From Chitinophaga caseinilytica (GTDB lineage Bacteria; Bacteroidota; Bacteroidia; Chitinophagales; Chitinophagaceae): a stretch of 64,000 nt of DNA. A program made the translations under genes and the position numbers. This document shows positions 13,831 to 20,967 of this stretch, piece after piece. The first letter of the stretch is position 1, and the number at the start of each line of letters is the position of its first letter. Under the pieces are notes generated by a model, which ran no database searches, was not told where the DNA came from, and was given only the letters and a program-made list of their open reading frames with translations. The stretch spans positions 3,765,001 through 3,829,000 of the forward strand of contig NZ_CP150096.1 of NCBI RefSeq assembly GCF_038396765.1, given 5' to 3'.

Positions 13831-14223
13831 ATGAAGCCGCTACATTCGATCTTTATAGTAGACGATGACCCCATTCACCAGCAGATCACTGAAATCATGC
13901 TGGAAAGACTGAGGATCGCTGATGCAGTCACTAAATTCTCTGACGCACAGGATGTGCTGGACCATATCCGCGTCAATACCGCAGACCAGGCTTCCCTGCC
14001 GGACCTGATCCTGCTGGACCTCAATATGCCTGTTATGGACGGGTGGGAATTCCTCGAAGTATATGCCGGGATCCGGCATCAGATCGCCAAAGACATTCGG
14101 ATTTATGTGCTCACTTCCTCTATCGACGAGCGCGACCGGCAGCGGGTAGACCAGTTCGACTTCGTGTCTGGCTACCTTACCAAGCCTTTGACCAACGATA
14201 TTATCATGGCATTGTTACCGTAA
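13831..14223 (+). CDS. CheY-like single-domain response regulator
   Basis: A 130-residue receiver domain with no output domain. The acidic pocket DDD (residues 11-13), phospho-acceptor Asp63 in LLDLNMP, the switch residue region LTSS and Lys118 in TKP are all present. ATG 13831 is chosen because MKPLHSIFIVDDD starts exactly at the first strand; the frame is open upstream inside the kinase gene. It is coupled to the upstream histidine kinase and probably acts by protein contact. The last 20 bases overlap the convergent rpe gene. Confidence 0.9.
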   Translation: MKPLHSIFIVDDDPIHQQITEIMLERLRIADAVTKFSDAQDVLDHIRVNTADQASLPDLILLDLNMPVMDGWEFLEVYAGIRHQIAKDIRIYVLTSSIDERDRQRVDQFDFVSGYLTKPLTNDIIMALLP

Positions 14224-14898
14224 CGGGGCGTTTCAGCTCGCGGATGGTGGCGGCAGGGTTTGCTGAAGAGAAAACCGTGTTGCCGGCTACTAGTACGTCT
14301 GCTCCCGCTTCGACCACGAGCGCCGCGTTTTGCGTGGTGATGCCGCCGTCTACCTCGATGAGGGCGGTGGAGCCCGTTCTGCGGATGAGGTCGCGCACCT
14401 GGCGGAGCTTGATGTAGGTTTGTTCGATGAAATGCTGGCCGCCGAAACCGGGGTTCACGCTCATGATGAGCACCAGGTCGAGGTCGGTGATGATGTTTTC
14501 CAGCTGGCCCACGGAAGTGTGGGGGTTAAGGGCTACACCGGCTTTCATGCCCAACCCTTTGATCTGCTGGATGTTGCGGTGGAGGTGGCGGCAGGCTTCG
14601 ATGTGGACGGTCAGGTAATCTGCGCCGGCCTTTGCGAAAGCTTCCGCGTATTTTTCCGGCTCCTCGATCATGAGGTGCACGTCATTCACTTTTTCGAGAT
14701 TTTTGTAACGGCGGAAATCACCGGCAGCCCAAAGCTGATGTTGGGCACGAAGCGGCCGTCCATGACGTCGAGATGCAGCCAGTCGGCGTGGCTGTCGTTG
14801 ATCATTTCCACATCTTTCCCGATTTCGAGAAAATTAGCGGCGAGGAGGCTGGGGGCGATGAGCGGTATTTTCTTTTCCAAGGCGTTACGAGTTTTCAA
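14204..14898 (-). CDS. rpe: Ribulose-phosphate 3-epimerase (frameshifted)
   Basis: Pentose-phosphate enzyme interconverting ribulose-5-P and xylulose-5-P. The N-terminal part from 14898 has IAPSLLAANF, ADWLHLDVMDG and FVPNISFG, then stops after ISKK. The rest (DVHLMIEEPEKY, LTVHIEACRHLHR, MSVNPGFGGQ, EVDGGI, LVAGNTVF) continues in another frame. The switch is at a run of five T on the plus strand (14690-14694). One extra base gives about 231 residues, a normal length with all metal and phosphate ligands. It is the last gene of the minus-strand block that begins with thrA, and its end overlaps the response regulator by 20 bases. Confidence 0.92.
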
Positions 14899-15750: not shown

Positions 15751-17079
15751 TTATTTCGCATCCTCCGTAACGGCGGCTTTCGCGGTTTGCAGGAGCCAGT
15801 CGCGCATTTTGTTATAGTCTGCATCCATCAGTACGGCTTCTTTCTGCATGCCATCGAGCACCATAATCCGCTCCGGCGCCTGGATAGCGTCTGCGAGGCC
15901 CGGGGGCATCGTGTTGGCGAACTTCACTGGGTGCGCGGTTTCCAGGAAAATACCCAGGTGGCCGGGGTGCGTTTCCATGTATTTTTTCAGGCCCAGGTAC
16001 CCTACGGCGCCGTGCGGGTCCATGAGGTAGCGGCGGCGGGCGTAGACGTCTTCCATCGCGGCAACGGTCTGCTCGTCGGTGAAGCGGAAAGCGGAAAGAC
16101 GGGCTTTCAGCGCCCGGTCGTTCTGCGCGAAAAGCTGCAGGATGCGCACGAAGTTGCTGGGGTCTGCCACGTCCATGGCGTTAGATAGTGTGGCGGTGGC
16201 GGGTTGCGGCTCGTATCTGCCGTTCTCCATGAATCGCGGCACGGTGTCGTTCACGTTGGTGGAGGCGATGAAATGGGGGATGGGAAGCCCCATCGCAGCG
16301 GCCATCATGCCGGCGCAGATGTTGCCGAAATTACCGCTGGGAACGGAGATCAGGGGTTCTTTCTTCCACTGTTTCACTTTCCGGTACGCCATGAAGTAAT
16401 AAAACATCTGTGGCAGCCACCTGGCTACGTTGATGGAGTTAGCGGACGTGAGGGGCCTCCGGGCCTGCAGTTCCTCGTCGAGGAAAGCCATTTTCACCAG
16501 TCGCTGGCAATCGTCGAACGTGCCTTTGATCTCCAGCGCGCGGATGTTGCGGCCGAGGGTGGTGAGCTGTTTTTCCTGGAGGTCGCTGACTTTGCCGGAA
16601 GGGTAGAGGATCACTACTTCCACACCTGGCACATCGTAGAACCCGCTGGCCACGGCGCCGCCGGTATCGCCGGAAGTGGCTACCAGTACGGTGACGGGCT
16701 TCTCTTCATCTTTCCGGAAATACCCCAGGCATCCGGCCATGAACCGGGCGCCCACGTCTTTGAACGCCAGCGTAGGCCCGTGGAATAACTCGAGTGCATA
16801 TACGTTGTCTTCCACTTCCCGGAGCGGGAAAGGGAAAGTGAGCGTTTCGCGGATGATCTGGGTGAGCGCCTGTACGGGAATGTCGGCGCCCACGAAAGGC
16901 TGGATCACCTTGCGGGCGATGTATTGGGGATCGTATTCTTCGAGCCTTTCGATGAAATCCTTCTCCAGCCGCGGTATTTCAACGGGGAAATAAAGCCCTT
17001 TGTCGGGCGCCAGGCCGCGGATGACGGCTTCGCGGAAGGAAACGCGGTGCTGGTGGTTCTGGAGGCTATAGTACTGCAT
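15751..17079 (-). CDS. thrC: Threonine synthase
   Basis: A 442-residue PLP enzyme converting O-phosphohomoserine to threonine, the last step of the pathway. The Schiff-base lysine is Lys107 in LAFKDVGARF; VATSGDTGGAVASGF is the phosphate loop, and SANSINVARWLPQ is typical of the longer threonine-synthase form. Length is normal. It overlaps the 3' end of thrB by 14 bases, so it is translated from the thrABC message. Confidence 0.95.
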   Translation of the reverse strand: MQYYSLQNHQHRVSFREAVIRGLAPDKGLYFPVEIPRLEKDFIERLEEYDPQYIARKVIQPFVGADIPVQALTQIIRETLTFPFPLREVEDNVYALELFHGPTLAFKDVGARFMAGCLGYFRKDEEKPVTVLVATSGDTGGAVASGFYDVPGVEVVILYPSGKVSDLQEKQLTTLGRNIRALEIKGTFDDCQRLVKMAFLDEELQARRPLTSANSINVARWLPQMFYYFMAYRKVKQWKKEPLISVPSGNFGNICAGMMAAAMGLPIPHFIASTNVNDTVPRFMENGRYEPQPATATLSNAMDVADPSNFVRILQLFAQNDRALKARLSAFRFTDEQTVAAMEDVYARRRYLMDPHGAVGYLGLKKYMETHPGHLGIFLETAHPVKFANTMPPGLADAIQAPERIMVLDGMQKEAVLMDADYNKMRDWLLQTAKAAVTEDAK

Positions 17080-18036
17080 GTTGATGGGCTTTGATGGCTT
17101 TTACGCCGGTGGAACTGATGCGGGAAACGTGAATGTGATAGTCGACGCCGAGCGGTGCGTAGATGGATTCCATCATGGCGGCCACGGTGCGGGCGTTGGC
17201 TTCCCCTTTGGAAAGCATGAAAACGGACGGGCCGCTGCCGGAAATCCCTCCGCCCAGGGCCCCCGCTTCGCGGCAGCGCAGCTTCAGGTCGTGGAACGCG
17301 GGGATGAGTATGGAGCGGATCGGCTCAACGATGACGTCTTCCAGGGCGCGGGCGATGAGGTCATAATCTTCGCGGTACAGCCCGGCTACGAGCGCGCCTA
17401 CGTTGCCCCACTGGCGGATGGCGTCTTTGAGCATCACCTGCTGTTTGAGGATCTCCCGCGCATCGGCCGTCCGCACCTCGATCTGGGGATGGATCACCGT
17501 CACCCAGAGGTCGGCCGGCGTGTGCAGGGCGATCACGTCCAGCGGCTGATAGCTCCGCACGAGCGTGAAACCGCCCAGGATGGCCGGGGCCACGTTGTCG
17601 GCATGCGGCGTGCCGCAGGCGAGGCGCTCGCCTTCCATCGCAAAACGGATCAGCGCGTCGGAGGAAAAATGATCGTTGAGCAGCATATTCGCGCCCGCCA
17701 CGGCACCGGCCGCGCTTGCTGCGCTGGAACCGATACCGCTGCCGGGATGGATGTTTTTGCGGATGGCGATCTCCATGCCCACTTCCGGTTTGCCGTATTC
17801 CTGCAGCAGCGCCTGCAAAGCCACGCCCGCTACGTTCAACGACGCTTCCAGGGGAGCTTCGCGCCTTCGATGGAAGTGATGCGCACGCCGGGCGTGTCAG
17901 ACAGGCGGATGTCCATTTCATCGCCGGTGCTTTCCAGCGCCAGCCCGATCACGTCGAACCCGCAGGCGACGTTGGCTACGGTGGCCGGGGCAAATACCGT
18001 AACGGATGGCTTGTTTTCCTGGTTCATATCTTTCAT
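17066..18036 (-). CDS. thrB: Homoserine kinase (frameshifted)
   Basis: A GHMP-family kinase that phosphorylates homoserine. The first frame (from 18036, with VTVFAPATVANVACGFDVIGLAL) ends soon after the segment ITSIEGAKLP. The continuation, LNVAGVALQALLQ onward with the ATP loop PGSGIGSSAASAAGA and the C-terminal ALGGGISGSGPSVF, is in another frame. The switch is at a four-base G run on the plus strand (17851-17854); a fifth G would give LPLEASLNVAGVA and a 323-residue protein. The gene starts directly after the thrA stop (TAAATG) and overlaps thrC. Sequence error is the likely cause. Confidence 0.9.
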
Positions 18037-20478
18037 TTAACGAACGGTTCTGATAATGTCTGCAAATATGCCCGAAGCCGTTACATCGGCCCCGGCGCCC
18101 GCGCCTTTCACGATCAGCGGTTGCGCGGCATAACGCTGGGTGGTGAACAGCACGATGTTGTCTTTTCCTTCCAGCTGATAAAACGGGTGCTGCGGGCCTA
18201 CGGACTGCAATCCCACGGAAGCCTTCCCCATATGGTAGCGCGCCACGAACTTCAGCCGCTCGCCCTTGTCTGCCGCGTTTTTCAGCAGTTGTCCGAAGTG
18301 CGGCGCGCAGGTATCGAGCTGCTCGAAGAAGGCCGGAACATCGGCTGCGTTGAGGCAGGCATCCGGCAGGAAGGAATGGTTGTCGATATCGTCCATTTCC
18401 AATACCGCGCCGCTTTCGCGGGCCAGGATGAGGATTTTGCGCATCACGTCTTTCCCGCTGAGGTCGATACGGGGATCGGGCTCGGTGTAACCTTCGTCCT
18501 GCGCGGCTTTCACCACTTGCCGGAAGCTGGCGCCGTTCACGAAATTGTTGAACACGAAGTTCAGGCTGCCACTCAGCACGGCTTCGATGGTTTGCACTTT
18601 GTCGCCGCTGCGCACGAGGTCGTTGAGGGTATTGATGACCGGGAGCCCCGCGCCCACGTTGGTTTCGAAGAGGAAGGAAGCGTTGTACTTGCGGGCCAGG
18701 TCTTTCAATTGTTTATACGAAGCATATTCCGACGAGCACGCGATCTTGTTACAGGTTACCACCGAAATGCCGTGCTGCAGGAAGTTAGCGTAAAGCCCTG
18801 CAACGGCTTCGCTGGCGGTATTGTCGACGAACACGCTGTTGCGGAGGTTCATCTGCGGGATGCGGGCGGCGAAGGCGGCGAGGTCCATGGGCTCGCCGTT
18901 TTTCAGTTCGTCTTTCCAGTTCCCCAGCGGAATGCCGCTTTCGGAGAAATGCATGTTGCGGCTGTTGGCCAGGGCGATGATGCGCACCTGCACACCGAGC
19001 TCGCTGCGGAGGTAGGATTCCTGCTGCTGGAGCTGCTCGAGCAGCTTTCCGCCAACGTTGCCGGTGCCGGCTACGAAGATGTTCAGTTGGCGGGTGTCCG
19101 ATTCGAAGAACACTTCATGGATAACGTTGAGTGCTTTGCGGAGGTCGTTTTTCCCGATCACGGCGGAGATATTTTTTTCGGTCGATCCCTGCGCGATGGC
19201 CCGCACGTTGATGGCATTGCGCCCCAGGGCGCCGAAGAGCCGGCCGCTCATACCGTGGTGGTTCTTCATATTGTCGCCCACAACGGCCACGATGCAAAGG
19301 TCTTTCTCCACCGTCAGCGGATTGATGCGCTTGTCATGGATTTCCTGCGCGAACTCGCCGTCTACGGCCGCTTTTGCCTTGAGCATGTCGCTTTCATTGA
19401 TGCCCACGGTGATGGAGTGTTCGCTGGAGCTTTGGGTGATGAGGATGACGTTCACGCGTTCCTGGAGCAGCGCGTCGAACAGGCGGCGCGAAAATCCGGG
19501 AATGCCCACCATGCCGCTGCCTTCGAGCGTGAGCAGCGCGATGCCCTTGATGCCGGAAATGCCGGTTACCGGGTAAGGTTTTTCGCCGTTGTCCTGGATG
19601 AGGGTGCCGCCGGCCCCGGGCTCGAAAGTATTCTTGATGAGGATGGGGATCCTGCGGTTCATCACCGGCTGGATGGTGGGCGGATAGATGACTTTGGCGC
19701 CGAAGTGCGACAGTTCCATCGCTTCTTCATAAGATATCCGTGGGATGGCGATGGCCTGCGGAACGATGCGCGGGTCGGCGGTCATCATACCGCTGACGTC
19801 TGTCCAGATTTCGAGCACGCTGGCGTCCATGGCCGCTGCGATGATGGCGGCGGTGTAGTCGGAGCCGCCGCGCCCGAGCGTGGTGGTGTCTTTATCGGCG
19901 TTAGAGGCGATGAAACCGGGGAAGATGACGATTTCTGCCTGCTGCTGGTGGAAGAAAGTAGTGATATTATGATCGGTGGCGTCGAAATTGACGAGCGCGC
20001 TGCCGAAATGATTGTCGGTGAGGATGAGATCGCGGCTGTCTTTCCAGGCTGCGTTCAGGCCTTCGAGCCGCAGTTTTTCGGCCAGCATCCAGGAGGAGAG
20101 GAGCTCGCCGTAGCTCATGACTTTGTCCCGGCACCGGTCCGACATTTCCCCGACCTGGAAAATTCCGTCCAGCAAGGCTTCCAGCTGATTGAGCTGTTTC
20201 TTTACCTGGCTGAGGTGGCCGCTTTGCGCGGTGATGGGGAAGAGGTTGCGGACGGTGTCGAGGTGGAGCTGTTCGATTTCGCGGAGCACGTCGCGGTATT
20301 GTTCGTTGCCGACCGCGGCGAGATGTCCGCAGCGGATGAGTTTGTCGGTGGTGCCGCTCATGGCGGATACGACTACGGCCATGACGCTTTTACGTTTATA
20401 ACGGGCTAGTATATCGCATACCTGGCTGATAGCTTGGGCGCTGCCTACGGAGGTGCCGCCGAATTTTAGGACCTGCAT
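18037..20478 (-). CDS. thrA: Bifunctional aspartokinase / homoserine dehydrogenase
   Basis: An 813-residue fusion catalysing the first and third steps from aspartate to homoserine. The aspartokinase domain has KFGGTSVGSAQAI at residues 5-17 and LGRGGSDYTA near 201. A pair of ACT-like regulatory regions follows (about 310-455, where threonine feedback binding is expected). The homoserine dehydrogenase domain starts near 465, with the NAD(P) loop GTGNVGG at 471-477 and the catalytic stretch around NFVNGASFRQVVKAAQDEGYTEPDPRIDL. It is the first gene of thrABC and is preceded by a Thr/Ile-rich leader peptide gene, which suggests control by threonine and isoleucine supply. Confidence 0.96.
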   Translation of the reverse strand: MQVLKFGGTSVGSAQAISQVCDILARYKRKSVMAVVVSAMSGTTDKLIRCGHLAAVGNEQYRDVLREIEQLHLDTVRNLFPITAQSGHLSQVKKQLNQLEALLDGIFQVGEMSDRCRDKVMSYGELLSSWMLAEKLRLEGLNAAWKDSRDLILTDNHFGSALVNFDATDHNITTFFHQQQAEIVIFPGFIASNADKDTTTLGRGGSDYTAAIIAAAMDASVLEIWTDVSGMMTADPRIVPQAIAIPRISYEEAMELSHFGAKVIYPPTIQPVMNRRIPILIKNTFEPGAGGTLIQDNGEKPYPVTGISGIKGIALLTLEGSGMVGIPGFSRRLFDALLQERVNVILITQSSSEHSITVGINESDMLKAKAAVDGEFAQEIHDKRINPLTVEKDLCIVAVVGDNMKNHHGMSGRLFGALGRNAINVRAIAQGSTEKNISAVIGKNDLRKALNVIHEVFFESDTRQLNIFVAGTGNVGGKLLEQLQQQESYLRSELGVQVRIIALANSRNMHFSESGIPLGNWKDELKNGEPMDLAAFAARIPQMNLRNSVFVDNTASEAVAGLYANFLQHGISVVTCNKIACSSEYASYKQLKDLARKYNASFLFETNVGAGLPVINTLNDLVRSGDKVQTIEAVLSGSLNFVFNNFVNGASFRQVVKAAQDEGYTEPDPRIDLSGKDVMRKILILARESGAVLEMDDIDNHSFLPDACLNAADVPAFFEQLDTCAPHFGQLLKNAADKGERLKFVARYHMGKASVGLQSVGPQHPFYQLEGKDNIVLFTTQRYAAQPLIVKGAGAGADVTASGIFADIIRTVR

Positions 20479-20563
20479 GTTGAATCAAGATGAATGAGGA
20501 AACGGAAGGGGAAACACCCCGCTTGCTGGGAACCGGAGAAGCCCGGTCGGTGGACGATATGTG

Positions 20564-20586
20564 AAAATTAACCCCGGGATGGGGTT
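20564..20586 (-). promoter_or_regulatory. Attenuator hairpin at the end of the thr leader peptide
   Basis: On the minus strand AACCCC (20586-20581), loop ATCCC, GGGGTT (20575-20570), then AATTTT. The hairpin overlaps the last leader codons and stop. Its 5' arm (ACCCC) can also pair with GGGGT at 20520-20516, and CCCC at 20511-20508 with GGGG, so mutually exclusive structures are possible before thrA. The exact terminator/antiterminator assignment is not certain. Confidence 0.5.
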
Positions 20587-20672
20587 GTAATGGTTGTGGT
20601 TGTGATAATAGTGCCCGCTGCTCCGGTGGAGTGGGAAGCAATACGGATAATATGTGAGCTGGAGTAATGCAC
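20568..20672 (-). CDS. thrL: Threonine operon leader peptide (Thr/Ile-rich, 34 codons)
   Basis: A short minus-strand frame from GTG 20672 to TAA 20568, too short for routine gene callers. Codons 21-30 read TIITTTTITT, seven Thr and three Ile in ten codons, followed by PSRG and stop. This matches the logic of enterobacterial thrL, where ribosomes stall on Thr and Ile codons when these amino acids are short. It lies 90 bases before thrA and just after a plausible promoter, with a small hairpin overlapping its stop. The exact start is uncertain, since GTG 20672 is only the best-placed candidate. Confidence 0.7.
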   Translation of the reverse strand: MHYSSSHIIRIASHSTGAAGTIITTTTITTPSRG

Positions 20673-20696
20673 TATTAACTTATGACGTTGATAAGA

Positions 20697-20728
20697 CAAA
20701 GGTTATTAATTCTGCTGAAAAATGCAAA
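20697..20728 (-). promoter_or_regulatory. Putative promoter of the thr operon
   Basis: On the minus strand TTTG (20728-20725), a 20-base spacer and AACCTTTG (20704-20697) match the Bacteroidota consensus TTTG / TAnnTTTG with one mismatch. Transcription would start about 20 bases before the leader GTG. The rest of 20729-20967 shows no gene. Confidence 0.5.
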
Positions 20729-20967
20729 CAGTTTGGCGAGATTTAGAAAATTTCTAAAGGATGCATGCCTGCCAGATGCGCAGTAATATAGCTGGAGTGC
20801 AGGTTGGTGGCTGGATGTATGTTTAATGACAAATAGATGACTAAATGCGATTCCGGAATGCGCCCAAGTATAAACTGAGTGGGCGAATTATTAGAATATC
20901 CTGCTGTATATTTACCCCTTGCCGGATACCAGTCCGTACATTTCTATACCTGGATAACAATTAAAGA

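Follow-up and report, generated by a model that had tools for sequence, protein, structure and literature searches.

Upstream of the threonine operon thrABC, the genome examined here carries a short leader frame whose run of threonine and isoleucine codons, constant reading frame and recurrence in relatives support a conserved, translated-looking gene. Judged from its anatomy and its conservation, this leader is probably an attenuator of thrABC that senses Thr and Ile through a leader peptide, with a build widespread in Bacteroidota and unlike that of E. coli thrL; for the sensing-leader part of this explanation in particular, our confidence is high. Seen in the sequence are the Thr/Ile leader itself, a hairpin (B) that overlaps the stop of the leader, a motif present twice and a second hairpin (C), with no strong terminator. 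Their positions in the window, by which we mean the whole 64-kb stretch of DNA analysed, are as follows.

20697..20728, minus strand: Bacteroidota-type promoter, with TTTG at the -33 side and AACCTTTG at the -7 side
20669..20676, minus strand: 5' arm of stem A, AATAGTGC, which holds the start codon and pairs with 20614-20607
20568..20672, minus strand: leader peptide gene, GTG start, 34 codons, TAA stop
20646..20655, minus strand: 5' motif copy, ACATATTATC, lying 17 nt downstream of the start codon's first base
20607..20614, minus strand: 3' arm of stem A, GCACTATT, at the first Thr-Ile codons
20583..20612, minus strand: Thr/Ile codon run TIITTTTITT, codons 21-30
20570..20586, minus strand: hairpin B, AACCCC-ATCCC-GGGGTT, which overlaps the 3' end of the leader gene with its stop codon
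20552..20562, minus strand: 3' copy of the motif, ACATATCGTCC, past the stop codon, with CATATCGTCC at 20561-20552
20532..20547, minus strand: hairpin C, ACCGG-GCTTCT-CCGGT
20508..20520, minus strand: hairpin D, GGGG-TGTTT-CCCC, predicted here, sequence not conserved
18037..20478, minus strand: aspartate kinase / homoserine dehydrogenase I gene thrA, at the head of the operon (NF006959, 1048 bits)
17066..18037, minus strand: thrB, homoserine kinase, with a broken reading frame in the record
15751..17079, minus strand: thrC, threonine synthase (TIGR00260, 288 bits)

The leader gene and its conservation

The minus-strand frame 20672-20568, which translates as VHYSSSHIIRIASHSTGAAGTIITTTTITTPSRG followed by the stop, agrees with the original prediction for this DNA in its start, its length of 34 codons and the placing of TIITTTTITT at codons 21-30, and the genes downstream of it are thrA, thrB and thrC, as that prediction had claimed. 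Among the 100,618 stop-free 10-codon windows in the six frames of the 64 kb, the leader run is the sole one in which all 10 codons specify Thr or Ile, and in 60 dinucleotide shuffles of the same 64 kb the maximum was 6 (46 times), 7 (11 times) or 8 (3 times). Since no shuffle exceeded 8 and the 10/10 window stands alone, the run is not there by chance. By this sequence signature, the leader is a short frame rich in the codons of the regulated amino acid, as are leaders of the thrL kind. The Thr codons of the run are ACA or ACT in 4/7 cases and its Ile codons ATT in 2/3, which are small numbers; in six genes of the window these codons are rare (ACA/ACT 17/156, ATT 24/210).

The consensus-like promoter that had been placed at 20728-20697 has no sigma-70 match: a scan of 20300-20960 for sigma-70 promoters, whose consensus is that of E. 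coli while Bacteroidota use another, found none. What stands at this place is a promoter of the Bacteroidota type, for which an excerpt of PMC9723704 gives a -7 box of TAnnTTTG. The last TTTG, at 20700-20697, lies 28 nt before the leader start, and a TTTG is kept 23-32 nt before the leader start in 36/36 Chitinophaga genomes. At the other end of the operon region, two observations concern the record itself: thrB is split over two frames here and intact in the close relatives L002 and L003, by a sequencing error or a real break, and the rpe frame 14204-14689 spans profile positions 61-211 only, with the N-terminal part outside that frame.

A thrA search of 59 genomes (the organism's own and relatives) yielded full-length thrA in 36/36 Chitinophaga genomes. 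These 36, chosen by thrA alone, all have a Thr/Ile leader upstream of thrA, so that the check proposed in the original prediction, on the upstream regions of thrA in relatives, found both the Thr/Ile run and its frame kept in 36/36. In each of them the leader starts with GTG at the same place, and this GTG shares the reading frame of the run, which stays open until a stop codon at the hairpin; in L007 that codon falls inside the hairpin loop, and in four leaders a start further upstream is also possible. Leader lengths within the genus differ by multiples of three, and within the run the column entropy rises from the first codon position to the third, averaging 0.23, 0.72 and 1.31 bits (35 rows, counted without L007). 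The thrA start follows the leader end at 79-90 nt in the 36 genomes, measured in L007 from its later stop. We also note a TACGTATAAA-like stretch about 30 nt before thrA in many Chitinophaga leaders (L010, L013-L018, L022-L025 and others).

Beyond the genus, we searched with two covariance models, R1 and R2, which were built on the Thr run, the two hairpins B and C and the motif past the stop, with no thrA sequence in them, counting matches at E 0.1 or better under strict filters. R1 matched 97/294 family genomes, covering 55/101 genera, and 13/295 class genomes, one of them falsely (L085); R2 matched 58/395 phylum genomes, including family f103 outside the class. thrA lies downstream of 40/41 and 26/26 fetched matches, together 66/67, counts that cover these 67 fetched loci, at most 30 per search, with most R1 matches in the family and R2 matches in the phylum lying beyond them; L110, where thrA is about 0.7 kb from the leader match, is among the 67, and after removal of five repeats of model loci 61/62 matches lie upstream of thrA. 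The element is thus found directly upstream of the operon of its own amino acid, both in these 66/67 matches and in the window, where thrA, thrB and thrC follow.

Viewed from thrA, an R2 match was present in 58 of the best 80 of 581 confirmed thrA relatives (in L248 at about 0.7 kb) and absent from the other 22 of these 80, and at least 7/10 Thr/Ile codons occurred within 300 nt upstream in 52 of the best 80 of 581; this set overlaps the genomes of the model searches, and its counts are not additive with theirs. Carriers of R2 matches include Chitinophaga, Flavobacterium, Chryseobacterium, Ferruginibacter, Longitalea, Kordia and Polaribacter, and the match was absent, among these 80 relatives, from both Hymenobacter records, Robiginitalea and the Sphingobacterium record, among others. 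Elsewhere in the order, eight thrA loci of other families had no model match (0/8). By such matches, the Thr/Ile leader is widespread in Bacteroidota, yet not universal.

The set of 96 leaders used below consists of the 36 genus leaders, L045, L049, L050 and 57 others. Five were left out as duplicates (L046, L047, L048, L094 and L099, whose loci are those of L001, L008, L032, L076 and L078), as were L085, a chance match with no thrA, and L110, because of its distant thrA. The 60 leaders beyond the first 36 were found with models that include the Thr run, the start codons of non-genus leaders were chosen by rule and are uncertain, and, since many leaders come from close relatives, the counts are not independent. 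All 96 have at least 6 Thr/Ile codons within the last 16 codons, with a mean of 9.3 in the leader frame vs 0.2 and 0.6 in the other frames, and one of the 96, L090, has no in-frame start codon.

Hairpins, stem A and the duplicated motif

The last Thr codons and the stop lie within the span of hairpin B, the stop either just past its core or in its loop. In a set of 60 leaders, 27 of them from the genus (24 of the 36 plus three; L072 was left out), 97.1% and 93.7% of cells in hairpins B and C were standard pairs, and double-sided changes occurred in 3/6 pairs of B and 5/5 of C, in total 8/11. The two hairpins together had 92 cells with double-sided changes vs 25.6 in shuffles, in an alignment that was fitted to the model and so favours the signal; the signal was lost when partners were slid. 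On Chitinophaga alone, RNAalifold predicted just hairpins B and C. Within the genus, covariation stems from hairpin C, while hairpin B barely varies, and two of five covariation measures were not above shuffles (112 and 234 of 500 reach them). The 218-nt leader as a whole folds moderately better than its shuffles (z -2.06; 5/200 shuffles as good).

Stem A would pair the region of the start codon with the first Thr-Ile codons; being strong only within the genus, it was dropped as a phylum-wide feature. Its duplex energy in the 39 genus leaders is -12.3 kcal/mol vs -8.0 kcal/mol with codon-shuffled partners, and swapping partners within the genus costs little (-11.6 kcal/mol). The difference is slight in 26 other family leaders (-8.8 vs -7.8 kcal/mol), and stem A is absent in the other two groups (-5.1 vs -5.2 and -5.9 vs -6.1 kcal/mol, again with codon-shuffled partners). 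The genus members L021 and L032 have longer leaders, in which the partner site of stem A precedes the Thr run.

The motif ACATATCATC is present twice, 14-18 nt past the leader start and 9-12 nt past hairpin B. For the 5' copy, 29/39 genus and 47/57 other leaders have an in-frame start with at least 7/10 matching positions +14 to +18 from it, and 10/39 and 10/57 are under this threshold; codon shuffles reached it in 9.1% (genus) and 8.2% (other leaders) of cases. In the 3' copy, CATAT is exact in 88/96 leaders, mostly followed by MATCC-like forms, and CATAT lies 9-12 nt beyond the last GGG of hairpin B in 94/96. The best ACATATCATC match falls in frame 0 in 41 leaders, in frame 2 in 35 and in frame 1 in 10. 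Because the motif thus sits in differing frames, it is kept as nucleotides and not as peptide.

Two readings of the motif were tried and set aside. As a complement of tRNA-Thr or of the transcript itself it gave only unspecific duplexes (four tRNAs, three of them tRNA-Thr). The pattern CATATCRTCC occurs 34 times in this genome vs 8 times for the reversed pattern; as a genome-wide attenuator signal it was rejected, because among the 30/34 sites viewed by eye a leader was seen only at thrA. Separately, an ACATA-like stretch is visible by eye about 14-16 nt past the start in several his leaders.

The terminator question and the his and ilv leaders

The original prediction had likened this region to E. 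coli thrL, with a hairpin and T tail over the stop and alternative pairings further down, through GGGGT at 20520-20516 and CCCC at 20511-20508. Hairpin B does overlap the stop, but its tail is weak (AATTTTCAC directly 3' of the hairpin here), and a scan of 20300-20960 with the E. coli terminator consensus found 0 terminators. Taken as a general U-tract, this tail was rejected, as outside the genus it is ACATTTNCATAT-like; the scores of the thr leaders nevertheless exceed those of shuffles. GGGGT and CCCC are both there as described, but after hairpin C they are not conserved (GGGG in 7/36 and CCCC in 4/36 genus rows), and the alternative pairing found here was rejected on that ground.

To score terminators, we used a stem-plus-U-tract score of our own with a threshold of 12. 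This score was reached by 0/96 thr, 10/12 his and 5/12 ilv leaders, and since the his and ilv leaders do reach it, the method does detect terminators in this phylum. The hairpin-plus-T medians of the thr leaders, 8.5 and 8.0, compare with shuffled means of 0.9 and 0.4, and four thr leaders score 11, all via hairpin B; as these values stand well above the shuffles, weak termination at hairpin B and its tail is still conceivable. Between the leader and thrA there is, then, no intrinsic terminator at score 12, though there is a signal above shuffles.

The leaders of other biosynthetic operons look different. Upstream of hisG in this genome (L173), a MNINVHTHHHHT... leader is followed by a strong terminator with a U-tract, a textbook his attenuator, and such a terminator lies upstream of hisG in 10/12 genomes viewed (L172-L183). 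Ile/Leu/Val-rich leaders with textbook terminators precede ilvD in 5/12 genomes (L184, L185, L191, L193 and L194), the five ilv leaders at score 12 being those with the Ile/Leu/Val-rich frame; in the four Chitinophaga genomes that were viewed, no such leader was seen ahead of the best ilvD copy. In these Bacteroidota genomes, the his and ilv leaders thus share with the thr leader a frame rich in the relevant residues (His or Ile/Leu/Val) before the operon, and differ from it in their U-tract terminators (10/12 and 5/12). The likeness to thrL is therefore partly supported: the Thr/Ile sensor frame would be thrL-like, but a terminator/antiterminator switch of the thrL type is unsupported, given 0/96 leaders at score 12 and the unconserved GGGG and CCCC.

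A proposed mechanism, its alternatives and known systems

We propose a scheme in which the ribosome on the leader frame would decide the fate of a paused RNA polymerase. The polymerase would pause at the 5' motif copy as the start codon emerges, letting a ribosome load, and would pause again once it has reached the 3' copy and hairpin B lies directly behind. When Thr and Ile are ample, the ribosome would complete the leader and depart; the leader RNA, with its excess of C over G, would then be bare, and a termination factor, most likely Rho among such factors, could get to the paused polymerase. When charged Thr or Ile tRNA is short, the ribosome would stall in the run and shield the leader RNA, a stall at the late codons would also shield the 5' arm of hairpin B, and transcription could proceed into thrABC. 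A stall at the first Thr codons would leave hairpin B uncovered, which counts against the explanation.

The two steps at which the polymerase is held and released are put forward with less assurance than the sensing frame. Pausing at the motif copies is a tentative proposal, possible though short of probable. With no strong terminator present, release by Rho would be the simplest assumption, and in 81/96 leaders the C content is more than 1.5 times that of G, a weak sign of Rho; its assignment as the termination factor is doubtful. A bolder form of the scheme, which we offer as speculation, would make ACATATCATC a polymerase pause element of Bacteroidota that is used twice, once for loading ribosomes without a Shine-Dalgarno sequence and once for a hold behind hairpin B, with the outcome set by Rho or by pause release; this would be a phylum-level attenuator without an intrinsic terminator. 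To our knowledge, Bacteroidota are a phylum without Shine-Dalgarno signals. According to an excerpt of PMC12288461, pause hairpins lie 10-13 nt before the pause, and NusG-dependent pauses have a T-rich stretch at -11 to -6. By analogy, hairpin B, its T-rich tail and CATAT would fit this pause-hairpin geometry, the pause position itself being an assumption. The elemental pause consensus given in the same excerpt (G-10, Y-1 G+1; PMC12288461) was not visible for a pause within CATAT in the profile of the 3' copy in 57 leaders.

Several other explanations have to be weighed. A textbook thrL-type attenuator, in which the stall site decides between an antiterminator and an intrinsic terminator (formed by hairpin B or D, both weak in their sequence), would account for a leader anatomy that is the same in kind as that of thrL, for the TTAATTTT after hairpin B in many genus members and for hairpin-plus-T scores well above shuffles; D-like hairpins with T-rich stretches are also seen by eye before thrA in some leaders, and the his and ilv leaders of the same genomes are of the textbook kind. 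We nevertheless consider it unlikely, because the score of 12 that 10/12 his and 5/12 ilv leaders reach is reached by none of the 96 thr leaders, and because the arms of hairpin B have no conserved alternative pairing to GGGG or CCCC past hairpin C. If instead the leader acted on translation of thrA, its own translation and hairpins B and C would govern ribosome access to the thrA start. No terminator would then be needed, and the 79-90 nt from leader end to thrA in the 36 genus genomes would find a use, but hairpins C and D leave the thrA start uncovered and the spacing varies outside the genus (48-174 nt from CATAT to ATG), which makes such control quite improbable.

The remaining two bear on single parts of the scheme. 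Against the pauses alone, the ACATATCATC copies might be sites for an RNA-binding protein or contacts for the ribosome, as their conservation as nucleotides, with the best match in differing frames, would allow; the fixed offsets (+14 to +18, and 9-12 nt past hairpin B) are what one would expect if the position of the polymerase matters, and pairing to the transcript or to four tRNAs (three tRNA-Thr) is unspecific, so that we regard this reading as a possibility, if a rather unlikely one. That the frame is not translated at all, its Thr/Ile run being a by-product of a conserved RNA element, is hardly credible: several parts are indeed conserved as RNA and L090 lacks an in-frame start codon, but lengths differ in threes within the genus, variation gathers at third positions, Thr and Ile appear in one frame only and the start codon is kept. 

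A Thr/Ile-sensing attenuator would have its nearest counterpart in sensing in E. coli thrL, likewise a short Thr/Ile-rich leader gene directly before thrABC, which we take to be the Rfam family Thr_leader (RF00506). The present leader differs from it in lacking a strong intrinsic terminator (96 leaders), in its GTG start in the genus and in the duplicated ACATATCATC. No Rfam family, Thr_leader included, matched the window (at the gathering score), positions 20400-20800 (to E 5) or 13 related loci (to E 0.1). For the mechanism that we propose, the closest model is E. coli tnaC, where a ribosome stalled on the leader controls Rho-dependent attenuation; there the stall is at the stop codon on tryptophan excess, and here it would be on a missing charged tRNA. 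A 2004 FEMS paper by Vitreschak and others reportedly mentions attenuators in Bacteroidetes/Chlorobi, and the thr leader may have been described in it.

Published work, as far as excerpts of it go, offers further points of comparison. E. coli thrL has pause sites, thrL1 and thrL2 (excerpt of PMC9291695). The tlrB leader of Bacillus subtilis has a NusG-dependent pause and resembles our scheme in joining a leader peptide with a pause, but it responds to tylosin and not to amino-acid supply, and a duplicated motif is not seen there in the excerpted text (PMC12288461). Bacteroid-trp (RF01692), listed as a candidate cis-regulatory RNA in Bacteroidetes in an excerpt of PMC2864571, is likewise a Bacteroidetes candidate and by its name belongs to trp genes; identity with it was rejected, there being no match in the window or in the 13 thr-leader loci, and RF01692 matched 0/60 class genomes and, among 14 control genomes, only Bacteroides ihuae. 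A study of structured 5' regions in Flavobacterium psychrophilum is akin to ours in reporting strong clues that leader-peptide attenuation operates ahead of amino-acid operons; its main text names neither thrA nor threonine (PMC9723704). Short frames reminiscent of leader peptides have been described in Bacteroides thetaiotaomicron (excerpt of PMC7366714). The excerpts of PMC4833913, PMC8632094 and PMC6429828 contain nothing on a thr leader, and our search of the open-licence literature found no description of this thr element.

With the leader described here, several families of Bacteroidota have a concrete candidate cis-element for controlling threonine; on attenuation in this phylum we found little in open-licence papers. 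Because textbook his and ilv attenuators occur in the same genomes, the thr leader provides a built-in contrast without a strong intrinsic terminator. The fixed distances of the motif from the start codon and from hairpin B would make the coordination of polymerase and ribosome in the absence of Shine-Dalgarno signals directly testable.
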